30,991 nucleotides of DNA from a virus. Shown piece by piece: positions 12,290 through 16,335 of this stretch; position 1 is the stretch's first letter; the number at the start of each line of letters is the position of its first letter. Location: positions 1 to 30,991 of the IMG/VR virus record IMGVR_UViG_3300038410_000092; one strand, 5' to 3'. The notes under the pieces are model-generated. The model searched no databases and had not been told where the DNA came from. It worked only from the letters and a program-made list of their open reading frames with translations. Made by a program: the position numbers and the translations under genes.

Positions 12290-12712
12290 ATGACCACCGC
12301 AACCGCCCGGCGCTCGGCGCCGAAGAAGTCCGCCCCGGCCGCCGCCGCGGCGATCGCCCTCACCCTGCCGACGCTCGCCAAGGGCGAGCGCTACGTCGGC
12401 GCCGTCATCGGCCCCGACGGCCGCGGCGAGCACTGCATCCTGCTCGCCGGCGATGCCGAGCCCCTCACCTGGTCGCAGGCGCAGGAATGGGCGGTCAAGC
12501 AAGGCGGCACCCTGCCCAATCGCCACGAGCTGCTCCTGCTGTGGACGCATCACCGCAAGGAGTTCAAGCGCGACTGGTATTGGTCGAGCGAGCAGTACGA
12601 GTCGGACGAGCGCTGGGCCTGGTACCAGAGCTTCCTCGACGGCTACCAGGGTTACCTCGACAAGGGCAGCAAGCTCAGAGCTCGCGCCGTCCGCAGAGTG
12701 CCCATTCGCTAA
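12290..12712 (+). CDS. DGR target protein 1 (C-type-lectin-like, variable C-terminus)
   Basis: Encodes 140 aa from the ATG at 12290, after GGGAG. An Ala-rich basic start (about 1-25) leads to a core (KGERYVGAVIGPDGRGEHCILL, LTWSQAQEWAVKQGGTLPNRHELLLLW, then WYWSSEQ). This resembles the DUF1566/C-type-lectin fold used by many DGR targets. The last ~40 residues are the variable repeat, ending in the conserved KLRARAVRR. Diversified codons encode Y, S, L, D, Y, G, L, G and S at sites where the template has AAC, AAT or GAC. No signal peptide, membrane helix or tail-fibre domain is visible, so its display site is unknown. Paralogous to the next gene over the C-terminal half. Confidence 0.85.
   Translation: MTTATARRSAPKKSAPAAAAAIALTLPTLAKGERYVGAVIGPDGRGEHCILLAGDAEPLTWSQAQEWAVKQGGTLPNRHELLLLWTHHRKEFKRDWYWSSEQYESDERWAWYQSFLDGYQGYLDKGSKLRARAVRRVPIR
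12592..12697 (+). repeat. DGR variable repeat 1 (VR1)
   Basis: This 106-bp block aligns without gaps to the template repeat at 13886-13991. It differs at 12 positions, all of them adenine in the template; the 72 non-adenine positions are identical. The last 27 bp (AAGCTCAGAGCTCGCGCCGT...) are unchanged, and identity to the template ends at AGA. Confidence 0.95.
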
Positions 12713-12743
12713 TTCACCCATTTCCCGCGAGGAGTCTTCGACC

Positions 12744-13271
12744 ATGAAAAACGATCTGAACGTGCCGCAGCGCAGCCACCTATCGGCGAGCCTGAGCCTC
12801 GAGCAGCTCGGGCAGGAGGTGACGTTGGTGCTGCCCCTCGGCGTCGTCCTCAAGCTCGCCGAGACGCCGCCGGAGATGGTCGTGTCCCGACGTCTGGATG
12901 CGCTCGCCAAGCAGGGACCGGCGATCGGCGAGCAGGGCCTGTACGGCATCTACGCCGGCAACGCGCGCGGCTATGACGACGAGGCCGATGGCGTGCTCGA
13001 GGTGCTCGCCGAGGCGCCCGAGCGCTTGACGTGGCCCGAGGCGCTCAAGTGGGCCGCCTCGCTCGGCGAGGGCGCGCGGCTGCCGACGCGCAAGGAGCAG
13101 GCGCTGCTCTTCGCCAATGTGCCGGAGCTCTTCCGGGAAGAGGCGTACTGGTCCTGCGAGCAGCACGACGAGCGCTGGGCCTGGTACCAGAACTTCAACG
13201 GCGGCGTCCAGGATTGCAACGACAAGGACTACGAGCTCAGAGCTCGCGCCGTCCGCAGATTGCCGATTTAA
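12744..13271 (+). CDS. DGR target protein 2 (C-type-lectin-like, variable C-terminus)
   Basis: Encodes 175 aa from the ATG at 12744, after GAGGAG. The N-terminal ~65 residues are distinct from target 1. From about residue 66 the paralogous core begins (GLYGIYAGNARGYDDEADGVLEVL, LTWPEALKWAASLGEGARLPTRKEQALLF, YWSCEQ). The variable repeat forms the C-terminus, ending ELRARAVRRLPI. Diversified codons give H, G, V, D, C, Y and E where the template has AAC, AAC, AAC, AAT, TAC, AAC and AAG. Two template AAC codons remain N here. No export or anchoring signal is visible. The presence of two targets with different N-termini suggests two separate binding roles using one diversification engine. Confidence 0.85.
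   Translation: MKNDLNVPQRSHLSASLSLEQLGQEVTLVLPLGVVLKLAETPPEMVVSRRLDALAKQGPAIGEQGLYGIYAGNARGYDDEADGVLEVLAEAPERLTWPEALKWAASLGEGARLPTRKEQALLFANVPELFREEAYWSCEQHDERWAWYQNFNGGVQDCNDKDYELRARAVRRLPI
13160..13259 (+). repeat. DGR variable repeat 2 (VR2)
   Basis: This block matches the template with 9 substitutions, all at template adenines, and lacks the hexamer GAGTCG found in the template (13893-13898) and in VR1. Without the gap, 93 bp (13167-13259) align with 8 substitutions. The conserved end CTCAGAGCTCGCGCCGTCCG is intact; the AAG before it has become GAG. Confidence 0.93.
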
Positions 13272-13301
13272 CCATTCACCCATTGCCGAAGGCGTGAAAT
13301 C

Positions 13302-13670
13302 GTGGGTCTGCATAGCGACACCGATCTCTACCGCGCGGTGACGGACCTCGCCCGGTTCGTCGCCGGCGCGGTGGCGAGCCTGCGTCGCGACGTGAAGCCG
13401 ACGCTCGGCCGCATGCTGCTCGACGAGTGCGTGTGGATGGCGGTCGTCGTGCGCCGCGCCAACATCGCGCGCGACGCCGCTAAGCTGCCGCTCCTCGAGG
13501 AGCTGCTCGAGCAGCTGGAGATCGTGCAGTTCACGCTGCGCATCGCCCGCGACTGCGCCTTCCTCTCCAACAACGCCTTTGCGACGTCGCTGCCGCTCAC
13601 CGCCTCGGTCGGGCGCCAGGCGACGGCGCTGAAGAACCACTATGTCTCCGCACCGTCGCCTGTTGCGTGA
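13302..13670 (+). CDS. avd: Avd-type DGR accessory protein
   Basis: Encodes 122 aa from a GTG at 13302. It is a nearly all-helical protein with four helices (LYRAVTDLARFVAGAVASL, PTLGRMLLDECVWMAVVVRR, LPLLEELLEQLEIVQFTLRI, LPLTASVGRQATALKNHY). The size and pattern are those of Avd, the small basic four-helix-bundle family related to 23S-rRNA intervening-sequence proteins. Avd assembles into a barrel that binds the reverse transcriptase and template RNA and is needed for mutagenic retrohoming. Its place between the targets and the template repeat repeats the Bordetella phage BPP-1 order. The end overlaps the upstream ATG of the RT reading frame by 29 bases. Confidence 0.85.
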   Translation: MGLHSDTDLYRAVTDLARFVAGAVASLRRDVKPTLGRMLLDECVWMAVVVRRANIARDAAKLPLLEELLEQLEIVQFTLRIARDCAFLSNNAFATSLPLTASVGRQATALKNHYVSAPSPVA

Positions 13671-15090
13671 TCGTCACGGCGATCGCGCCCGCGCGATTTT
13701 CAATCTGGTCGCGCCGCTGGCCATGCCTGCCGTGGCCACCGCCATGCGCACAAGGGATACCACCGGGCAGCTCGCGCTCGATTTCGACGCGGCGCCCGCG
13801 CCCGCGTCCCGCGCAGCCGACGAGCTGACCGACCTGCCGCTGTTCGCGGGTCTTCGGCCCGCCGGCGTCGATAGCGCGAATGACGGCAGAACGAGTCGGA
13901 CGAGCGCTGGGCCTGGTACCAGAACTTCAACAACGGCAACCAGAATTACAACGACAAGGACAACAAGCTCAGAGCTCGCGCCGTCCGCAGATCGAACCGG
14001 GGCGGATTTTTCTTACGGCGAGCTGCTGCAGGCGTGGCTCGATTGCCGGCGCACCAAGCGCCACACCGCGAGCGCGCGCGCCTTCGAGGCGAGCCTCGAG
14101 GAGAACCTCGCGCGCCTGCAGGCCGAGCTCGCCGGCGGCTCGTACCGGCCCGGCCATTCGATCTGCTTCGTCATCGATCGGCCGAAGCCCCGCGAGATCT
14201 GGGCCGCGCCCTTCCCCGACCGCGTGCCGCACCATCTGCTCTATAACCGGATCGCGCCGCGCTTCGAGCGCGCCTTCATCGCCGACACCTGCGCGTGCAT
14301 AGAGGGCCGCGGCACCCTCTACGCCGCGCGCCGCCTCGAGGCGAAGGTGCGCTCGATCACCGCCAACTGGACGCGGCCGGCGTACTACCTGAAGTGCGAC
14401 GTCGCCAACTTCTTCGTCTCGATCGACAAGCGCATTCTCGCCCGGCTGCTCGAGCGGCGCCTCCCCGAGCCCTTCTGGCGCGGCCTCGCCCGCACCATTC
14501 TCTTCCACGACCCGCGCGACGGCGTCGAGATCCGCGGCCGCCGCGATCGCCTCGCGCTCATCCCGCCGGCGAAGAGCCTCTTCCACCAGGATGCGCACCA
14601 CGGCCTGCCGATCGGCAACCTGTCGAGCCAGTTCTTCGCCAACGTCTACCTGAACGAGCTCGACCAGCTCGTCAAGCACCGGCTGCGCGCGCCCCACTAT
14701 GTGCGTTACGTCGACGACTTCGTGCTGCTGCACGAGTCCCCCGCGCAGCTCAATGCCTGGCGCACGGCGATCGCCGCGTTCCTCGAGGAGCGCCTGCAGC
14801 TTCGCCTTAATGACCGCAAGACGGTCCTGCAGCCGATCGCGCGCGGCATCGACTTCGTCGGCCAGGTGCTCAGGCCTCACCGCCGCCAGATCCGCCGCCG
14901 CACCTTCCACGATGCGCTGAGCCGCACCGCGGCCGCCGGTGCCGAGGACCTCACGCAGCGGGCCAACAGCTATTTCGGCCTGCTCCGCCAGGCGACACAT
15001 AGCCACGGCGATCGAGCGCGCCTCGCCAATATCGTCCGCCGCCGAGGCCTCGCCGTCGACCATCAGCTGAGGAAAGCCTATGGGCGATAA
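13642..15090 (+). CDS. DGR reverse transcriptase
   Basis: The open frame is 482 codons from the ATG at 13642. The RT core begins near residue 118. Motifs are RPKPREIWAAPFPDRVPHH (RT1 region), KCDVANFF with Asp253, IGNLSSQ at 324-330, YVDDF at 356-360 with both catalytic Asp, and GIDFVGQ at 402-408. IGNLSSQ in place of the QGxxxSP of group II introns is typical of DGR enzymes. The first ~117 codons include the whole template repeat, read as a Thr/Ser/Arg-rich stretch, and I find no ATG, GTG or TTG between the repeat and the RT core. In-frame starts exist only upstream (13642, 13723, 13744). The true N-terminus is therefore uncertain. The stop overlaps the next gene. Confidence 0.93.
   Translation: MSPHRRLLRDRHGDRARAIFNLVAPLAMPAVATAMRTRDTTGQLALDFDAAPAPASRAADELTDLPLFAGLRPAGVDSANDGRTSRTSAGPGTRTSTTATRITTTRTTSSELAPSADRTGADFSYGELLQAWLDCRRTKRHTASARAFEASLEENLARLQAELAGGSYRPGHSICFVIDRPKPREIWAAPFPDRVPHHLLYNRIAPRFERAFIADTCACIEGRGTLYAARRLEAKVRSITANWTRPAYYLKCDVANFFVSIDKRILARLLERRLPEPFWRGLARTILFHDPRDGVEIRGRRDRLALIPPAKSLFHQDAHHGLPIGNLSSQFFANVYLNELDQLVKHRLRAPHYVRYVDDFVLLHESPAQLNAWRTAIAAFLEERLQLRLNDRKTVLQPIARGIDFVGQVLRPHRRQIRRRTFHDALSRTAAAGAEDLTQRANSYFGLLRQATHSHGDRARLANIVRRRGLAVDHQLRKAYGR
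13886..13991 (+). repeat. DGR template repeat (TR)
   Basis: A 106-bp template with 34 adenines, rich in AAC codons in the target reading frame, ending CTCAGAGCTCGCGCCGTCCG-CAGA. After the end the template continues TCGAACCGG. The two variable repeats instead share kTGCCsATT, the expected distinction between the homing-initiation site in the target and its counterpart in the template. It lies between avd and the RT core, in frame within the RT ORF. Confidence 0.95.
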
Positions 15091-16117
15091 CAGCACCATC
15101 GAATGGACCGACGCCACCTGGAACCCGGTGCGCGGCTGCTCGATCGTCTCGAAGGGCTGCACCAACTGCTACGCGATGCGCCAGGCGCACCGCTCGAGCG
15201 GCGAGGGAGCCGCCTATGCCGGGCTGACAAAGGCGACGAGGGGCGGGCCGGTGTGGACGGGCGCGATCCGCCTCGTGCCCGAGCTGCTCAACCAGCCGCT
15301 GCGCTGGAAGCGGCCGCGGCGCATCTTCGTGAACAGCATGAGCGATCTCTTCCACGAGGCCGTGCCCGACGAGTTCATCCTCCAAGTATTCGATGTGATG
15401 CGCCAGTGTGAGAACGGCTGGACCGGACGCATCGGCGGTGATGGAGGCACGCTGGTGGCCTCGCACACTTTTCAGATCCTCACTAAGCGATCGGCGCGCA
15501 TGCTCGACTTTTGCGCACGGCTGCGCTTCGCCCAGAATGATGGGCGAGGGCTATATCTGGCTAGCGATCTCTCGCACAACGGTTTCAATCCTATGTCGGC
15601 ATTGCGGCACGTCTGGCTGGGTGTCAGCGTCGAGGACCAGGCCGCCGCCGATGAGCGGATCCCGCTGCTGCTGCAAACGCCGGCGGCCGTGCGCTGGATC
15701 TCGGCCGAGCCGCTGCTCGGGCCCATTGATCTGCACGATGTCGCCACGCTCGCCCCCGACCACATCGAGCGGCATGCATGGCGCCTGCTCGACTGGGTCG
15801 TTGCCGGCGGCGAAAGCGGTCCAGGAGCGCGGCCGATGCATCCGGACTGGGCGCGTAATCTGCGCGATCAATGCAGCGAGTTCGGCATCGCGTTCTTCTT
15901 CAAGCAATGGGGCGCCTTCCGTATCGGCGAATTCGATCGGCACCATGATGTGTCGATTCGTTGGCAGGACGGCGCACGAGAATGGTACGGCGACGGGGCC
16001 GACATTAAATACTCGGAAAGCTGGCTCGACGACAAAGTTATCGCATGGCCGGCGTCGAAGAAATCCACCGGCCGCCTGCTAGACGGCCGCACGCACGATG
16101 AGTATCCGGCAGCATGA
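15080..16117 (+). CDS. Phage Gp37/Gp68-family (DUF5131) protein
   Basis: Encodes 345 aa from the ATG at 15080, overlapping the RT end by 11 bases. The start IEWTDATWNPVRGC is diagnostic of the Gp37/Gp68 family found in many phages. Cys20, Cys27 and Cys30 (CSIVSKGCTNC) form a C-x6-C-x2-C motif that recalls the iron-sulfur site of radical-SAM-like enzymes. The family motifs VNSMSDLFH (about 86-94), ILTKR (about 132), WLGVSVE and GGESGPGARPM are all present, so the protein is complete. The biochemical role is not settled; a radical SAM or DNA-related enzyme is only a suggestion. It closes the accessory operon together with the next small gene. Confidence 0.82.
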   Translation: MGDNSTIEWTDATWNPVRGCSIVSKGCTNCYAMRQAHRSSGEGAAYAGLTKATRGGPVWTGAIRLVPELLNQPLRWKRPRRIFVNSMSDLFHEAVPDEFILQVFDVMRQCENGWTGRIGGDGGTLVASHTFQILTKRSARMLDFCARLRFAQNDGRGLYLASDLSHNGFNPMSALRHVWLGVSVEDQAAADERIPLLLQTPAAVRWISAEPLLGPIDLHDVATLAPDHIERHAWRLLDWVVAGGESGPGARPMHPDWARNLRDQCSEFGIAFFFKQWGAFRIGEFDRHHDVSIRWQDGAREWYGDGADIKYSESWLDDKVIAWPASKKSTGRLLDGRTHDEYPAA

Positions 16118-16335
16118 GCATACTCCTCGATGCCGATATCCTGCGCGCCGCCGAGCTGTTGGAACGACAGGCCCGGCTGCTCTTCGATTCGTACACATGC
16201 CGCGGGGCGTGGCGGGGCCGGGCACGGCAAGGCGGCGGTTGGGCTGGCAGGGCCGGGCGCGGCATGGCTTGGCGAGGCATGGCAAGGCAAGGCGTGGCGT
16301 GGCGGCGATGGCGCAGTTATGAACCCCGTTCATAA
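16114..16335 (+). CDS. Small protein whose C-terminus is made of a GGCNN repeat
   Basis: Encodes 73 aa from an ATG on an ATGA overlap. The first ~29 residues look ordinary and helical (MSILLDADILRAAELLERQA). From residue ~31 the coding sequence enters the pentanucleotide repeat, and the product becomes a Trp/Arg/Gly/Ala pentapeptide-like tail (AWRGRARQGGGWAGRAGRG). The stop codon lies inside the downstream palindrome. Either a genuine short protein has been extended by repeat expansion or the original C-terminus has been overwritten. Confidence 0.5.
   Translation: MSILLDADILRAAELLERQARLLFDSYTCRGAWRGRARQGGGWAGRAGRGMAWRGMARQGVAWRRWRSYEPRS
16206..16305 (+). repeat. GGCNN pentanucleotide tandem repeat, about 20 units
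   Basis: A 100-bp tract in strict 5-bp register, where 18 of 20 units begin GGC (the exceptions being CGGTT and GGGCT). The last two bases vary among units (GGCAT, GGCTT, GGCGA, GGCAA, GGCGT and others). It occupies most of the ORF at 16114-16335. The regular GG doublets could also support two-layer G-quadruplex folding. Confidence 0.8.

Follow-up and report, generated by a model that had tools for sequence, protein, structure and literature searches.

The diversity-generating retroelement (DGR) of Bordetella phage BPP-1 is laid out as mtd-avd-TR-brt: a target gene with a C-type-lectin fold, the accessory gene avd, a template repeat (TR) and the gene for a reverse transcriptase (RT), with mutagenesis directed at adenines. 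Here we describe a DGR of the same order (target-avd-TR-RT) in IMG/VR virus record IMGVR_UViG_3300038410_000092, a phage sequence of 30,991 bases analysed over its whole length (the window). It is complete, as a first-pass annotation of the window had proposed: it encodes two Lcl_C targets, Avd, a single 106-nt TR and a DGR-type RT. Several variable repeats (VRs) per TR occur in 28.6% of non-redundant DGRs (PMC6642488) and are reported in the accessible portion of Schillinger et al. 2012 (PMC3521204). The same portion notes, as structural group 3, a cassette class in which the TR overlaps the RT open reading frame (ORF), and treats it there without analysing RNA structure or reading frame. A single template that serves two targets is not new; the RNA arrangement is the less ordinary part.

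We read the locus as a phage DGR that diversifies two lectin-fold proteins, and whose TR is closed into a loop by a 5' structured RNA, RT-15, and a 3' strand, the whole unit being nested in the RT reading frame. We give this reading a probability of about 80%. It is supported directly by the parts themselves, the adenine specificity, the diversification seen in relatives, the position of RT-15 at the TR border, a covarying helix and the maintenance of the frame.

Adenine-limited repeats and their diversification

Comparison of the TR (13886-13991) with VR1 gives 12 differences over 106 nt, every one among the 34 template adenines (p = 2.5e-7 for random placement), as the first-pass annotation had counted. 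For VR2, the ungapped comparison (TR 13899-13992 with VR2 13167-13260) gives 8 differences over 94 nt, all among 30 adenines (p = 5e-5). A ninth change, A>C at 13164, requires a 6-nt in-frame deletion when VR2 is extended upstream to 13160. The earlier count of nine VR2 changes with none on other bases holds in its restriction to adenines; the deletion had been overlooked. TR/VR differences are found only at template adenines, at 12/12 sites in VR1 and 8/8 in ungapped VR2. The 3' ends of the two VRs share conserved GCCGTCCGCAGA, and VR1 ends 15 nt short of the end of its target gene, at the C-terminus of a protein with the C-type-lectin fold. A search of the window for further VR copies, tail genes included, returned none.

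Diversification was assessed among related loci with >93% RT DNA identity and identical TRs. Their VRs differ at 403/1229 template-adenine sites vs 8/2889 other sites, with 122/7140 differences in the flanks; these counts take every pair within a group and are not independent. The compared stretches of one pair of loci (L048 and L049) are alike apart from 14 VR1 adenine sites. Between the Pseudomonas aeruginosa phages Haboob and phPA-G (L109 and L110), the two VRs show 12 and 13 differences at adenine sites and none at any other VR site. Since relatives' VRs differ at adenines and hardly elsewhere, the DGR family appears to be active, with both targets diversified. Non-adenine differences among relatives, which the first-pass annotation had named as grounds for abandoning its proposal, are correspondingly rare.

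The RT-15 RNA and its closing helix

The sequence immediately 5' of the TR matches the Rfam family RT-15 (RF03018) over its full length, at 117.6 bits against a gathering cut-off of 82 (E 3e-27), and the match stops at the first TR base (13886). Rfam output gives RT-15 a name and no function, and its model ends at the TR, without TR adjacency or the helix described below. With a profile built from nine matches, RT-15 was detected in 104/112 loci of a first set and 156/163 of a second, the two sets sharing some contigs, and in about 235 related loci it adjoins the TR. The TR starts within about 8 nt of the RT-15 end in 93/101 and 142/148 loci, respectively. When the Rfam structure is laid on our own 65-sequence alignment, 44/56 pairs have changed on both sides; covariation is 0.290 vs 0.129 for shuffled alignments (0/500 reaching it) and 0.05-0.07 when the structure is slid. 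RT-15 is annotated also in Pseudomonas phage Cruim01.

A single-stranded segment of RT-15, P, is complementary to a strand formed by the TR 3' end and the linker beyond it, Q. The complementarity was first spotted by eye in alignments and tested afterwards, with the same anchors in the new set. Position 6 is paired in 92% of the 76 unique pairs of the discovery set vs 44% when permuted, by way of C-G, G-C and U-A. An independent set of 82 new unique pairs gives 93% vs 42% at position 6 and 88% vs 61% at position 7. Among 99 disjoint nearest-relative pairs, 12/18 position-6 changes are compensatory, where 0.5 were expected and 5000 shuffles reached a maximum of 4. Own partners fold with a mean pair probability of 0.54, vs 0.28 for swapped partners. 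Bases invariant in 159 unique loci are C, G and G on the RT-15 side and T, G and C on the TR side. The helix stops one nucleotide, G13708, short of the RT-15 closing stem, so that the TR loops out from a stacked junction.

What the helix does is a separate matter, as covariation demonstrates pairing and not function. It could simply close or protect the RNA, or tell TR from VR transcripts, with priming left to some other molecule or to a free 3' OH. The VR2 end (CAGATTGCC) could partly pair with P as well, which lends this some weight; the invariant G/G sits exactly at the junction, which speaks against it, and we consider it somewhat unlikely. The junction position of this G/G is where retrons use branch priming.

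In two loci (L074 and L100) a methyltransferase-like ORF, called a DNA cytosine methyltransferase from reading its translation alone, lies between the TR and the RT. About 1 kb upstream, RT-15, the TR and a 9-bp helix are still found as one unit, and the VRs carry A-only changes. Because these loci keep the unit apart from the RT, the functional RNA is most likely RT-15 plus TR plus Q, which is commonly, though not necessarily, nested in the RT ORF. The idea that the TR must lie within the ORF was accordingly rejected.

The same loci bear on whether this is an ordinary DGR of the BPP-1 type, with a priming spacer concealed 3' of the TR among RT codons and with RT-15 serving translation or RNA stability only. 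Precedent favours such a layout: the structured RNAs Phage_DGR in BPP-1 and RT-14 in BalMu-1 are located 3' of the TR, and BPP-1 primes from its 3' spacer (PMC12875486). Here, however, the 240 nt downstream of the TR yielded no pair in which both sides had changed, and no Rfam match was found 3' of the TR in the window; RT-15 is the pairing partner of the TR 3' end; and RT-15 and Q stay with the TR where the methyltransferase gene splits it from the RT. A concealed 3' spacer was rejected for want of covarying structure, and the ordinary layout as a whole seems improbable to us.

The reverse transcriptase, its nested frame and the target genes

The first-pass annotation had called the RT DGR-type, and both motifs it cited are present in the translation: IGNLSSQ, in which SQ replaces SP in motif 4, and YVDDF. 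Among solved structures the BPP-1 enzyme, bRT (8ub7), is the best match (2.8e-37); the next RT reaches 1.3e-10 and group II intron RTs about 1e-10. In a tree that took in other DGR RTs and left out a retron or group II intron outgroup, the window RT falls among RT-15-bearing DGR RTs; a position outside the DGR clade, the other outcome that the first-pass annotation had said would count against it, was not seen. The tree was rejected as evidence for a single origin of RT-15, as the root and several long branches are unsupported.

RT residues 1-115 are encoded by RT-15 and the TR; they are predicted to be disordered, with a predicted local distance difference test (pLDDT) score below 50, and the RT fold is predicted from about residue 116-117, that is, at the TR end. 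In the RT frame, the stretch from TR to RT domain has a stop in 0/98 related loci, with the other frames open in 77 and 70, and the RT-15 stretch is stop-free in 82/98 loci, vs 1 and 6 in the other frames. A stop-free frame alone was judged weak proof of coding, since conserved RNA positions fix the stops in other frames. Because RT-15 is itself a conserved RNA, the frame was tested by modulo-3 distances instead. Three RT-15 anchors lie at 19-25 distinct distances from the RT domain and are congruent modulo 3 in 91/91, 86/96 and 82/91 loci; a TR anchor is congruent in 92/93. Indels across RT-15 and the TR come in multiples of three.

An accidental frame in GC-rich DNA, with the RT starting further downstream, would fit the absence of codon-position bias in RT-15 (0.346/0.362/0.360), and would fit eleven loci in which the frame is broken within RT-15, nearly all of which have an in-frame start inside or just past the TR. 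The multiple-of-three indels over so many distinct lengths and the stop-free RT frame argue against it, as does the lack of any in-frame ATG, GTG or TTG in the window between 13744 and the RT domain; we regard it as very unlikely. A conserved protein domain in the N-terminal extension was rejected on the missing codon periodicity and the low pLDDT. Since RT-15 shows no codon bias and residues 1-115 are disordered, RT-15 and the TR are conserved at the RNA level, with the RT frame no more than kept open through them. The nesting of the TR in this frame and the abutment of RT-15 and TR had, like the VR2 deletion, escaped the first-pass annotation. In phage Haboob (L109, 4268-4480, minus strand) an opposite-strand hypothetical gene is annotated over RT-15 and the TR, probably an artefact.

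The cassette runs T1-T2-avd-RT, with every gene on the plus strand; coordinates are collected in Table 1. The T1 protein matches Pfam Lcl_C at 5e-8, just under the family cut-off. Its AlphaFold2 model has a pLDDT of 93, and Foldseek places the Legionella Lcl C-terminal domain (8q4e) as top PDB match, with C-type lectins next. T2 matches Lcl_C at 7.5e-6, under the family cut-off. The two targets had been described as sharing a variable end behind different N-termini; the T2 N-terminus is indeed longer, but the Lcl_C domain, at about 40% identity, is common to both. That two targets per template are usual in the clade and a known DGR arrangement was likewise passed over at first. T1 and T2 are small stand-alone proteins, not tail fibres; no recognised tail domain was found in them, and the target proteins of relatives have a median length near 160 amino acids. 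The accessory protein expected of a DGR is identified, as first proposed, through its PHROG match; against Pfam bAvd it scores 25 bits, under the cut-off.

Table 1. Positions of the DGR parts in the window.
Feature	Position	Strand	Basis
T1 target gene, 140 amino acids, small stand-alone Lcl_C/C-type-lectin-fold protein	12290..12712	+	ORF, Pfam, AlphaFold2
VR1	12592..12697	+	12 differences vs TR, all at template adenines
T2 target gene, 175 amino acids, Lcl_C paralogue of T1	12744..13271	+	ORF, Pfam
VR2	13160..13260 (ungapped part 13167-13260)	+	9 adenine changes and 6-nt deletion vs TR
avd, accessory protein	13302..13670	+	PHROG 3206 'Avd protein of DGR', 1.4e-10
RT ORF, 482 amino acids	13642..15090	+	PHROG RT 2e-110; frame conservation
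RT-15 structured RNA (RF03018), 5' module of DGR RNA, overlapping avd end and RT ORF start	13654..13886	+	cmscan
P, single-stranded RT-15 segment (TTTCAATCTG), pairing with TR 3' end	13698..13707	+	covariation
Invariant G between P/Q helix and RT-15 closing stem; candidate residue for priming (branch)	13708	+	159/159 unique loci
RT-15 multi-branched core, closing stem 13709-13714 / 13874-13879, adjoining TR 5' end	13709..13879	+	covariation, folding
TR, Thr/Ser/Arg-rich linker when read in RT frame	13886..13991	+	repeat comparison, RT frame
Q, TR 3' end and linker (CAGATCGAAC), pairing with P	13988..13997	+	covariation

Over 12290-16117 the DGR shares the plus strand with ParB-like and DUF5131 genes; the tape measure, minor tail and endolysin genes of the window are on the minus strand, apart from the DGR. 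Just past the DUF5131 gene, at 16199-16294, are short imperfect GC-rich tandem repeats (GGCATGGC-like).

A proposed mechanism and its relation to known systems

How these parts would act together we infer as follows. The template RNA would consist of the RT-15 fold at its 5' side, the TR, and a closing strand of about 10 nt at its 3' side that pairs back to the single-stranded RT-15 segment. RT and Avd most likely bind RT-15. The P/Q helix would present the TR 3' end to the primer residue at the junction, and the invariant G preceding CAG would be the first template base. Synthesis of complementary DNA (cDNA) through the TR would misread adenines and halt on reaching the closing stem of RT-15, which adjoins the TR 5' end, and the cDNA would then replace VR1 or VR2. 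With the whole RNA unit in the RT reading frame, the same RNA could either be translated into RT, whose RT-15/TR-encoded N-terminus is disordered, or serve as template. Taken further, the locus would be of DGR lineage and retron-like in template architecture: RT-15 would be both the docking site for RT and Avd and, through the P/Q helix, the provider of the branch primer (G13708), and the unit, doubling as code for the RT N-terminus, would couple RT synthesis and template use on one messenger RNA. We offer this fuller version tentatively, at somewhat less than even odds.

Several points weigh against the reading we prefer. The thermodynamic pair probability of the window's own P/Q helix is only about 0.41, and one of its first nine pairs is a mismatch. 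Q positions past the TR double as RT codons and may be constrained in that capacity. In three loci (L206, L215 and L273) the TR and the RT domain are 14-25 nt apart, as in this clade, but RT-15 is undetected; the modelled RT-15 is therefore not present throughout the wider clade, and these loci perhaps carry a divergent 5' RNA. The case for activity comes from relatives, the window's own VRs having no close isolate for comparison, and priming from RT-15 and RT binding to it are deductions from sequence.

If true, the reading assigns a role to an RNA family that is an orphan in Rfam, establishes at least two geometries of DGR template RNA, one structured on the 3' side of the TR and one on the 5' side, and ties the priming of DGRs to that of retrons in a form testable in cultured phages of the same clade. 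At roughly 340 nt, the self-contained unit of RT-15, TR and Q would also offer tools for targeted mutagenesis a compact alternative scaffold. We found no paper in the open literature that ties RT-15 to a DGR template, the 5' RNA layout or a closing helix; the original description of RT-15 fell outside this search, and earlier recognition is possible.

The DGR of Burkholderia phage Magia (NC_070954), like those of related Pseudomonas phages, belongs to the same clade, with an RT 65% identical, RT-15, the TR in the RT frame and two adjacent targets. The Magia DGR and its lectin-fold targets were already annotated by the genome's authors (NC_070954). Magia differs in a stop of the RT frame within RT-15, which moves the RT start later, and in having a third target gene served by its TR and set further off (L120, 38802-39182, minus strand, about 7 kb away); third VRs are found also in L025, L029, L033, L052, L053, L095 and L101. 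Two further records, Shewanella phage vB_Sb_QDWS (OK094664.1) and 'Hujiaoplasma phage zrk29-1' (OP650936.1), have the same length (47,902), the same RT match, with Magia as the nearest RT, and hosts of different phyla; one host assignment looks doubtful.

Retrons (msr-msd) resemble the window in having a 5' structured RNA, a 3' template, pairing inverted flanks and a conserved junction G. Flanks that close a 5' RNA and a 3' template are present here by the evidence of P/Q covariation; the RT is not of the retron clade, its nearest solved structure being the DGR bRT, and its product would be a mutated cDNA for VR replacement. The likeness is one of topology, with the branch a presumed feature.

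Against BPP-1 the differences are those of arrangement. BPP-1 has a single target of larger size, Mtd, a tail protein encoded among tail genes, and the window two small early-region targets; the BPP-1 TR lies outside brt, and that of the window within the RT ORF. In BalMu-1 (L114, 3798-3941) the stretch from TR to RT contains the orphan Rfam RNA RT-14, which probably serves that DGR as its 3' spacer. A second DGR that may lack a 3' spacer is that of Bacteroides phage F2 (L115, 3842-3944), where just 57 nt separate the TR and the RT domain. Since both BPP-1 (Phage_DGR, RF03022, between TR and brt) and BalMu-1 have their structured RNA on the 3' side of the TR, and the window has it on the 5' side, the clade of the window has the reverse of their layout.

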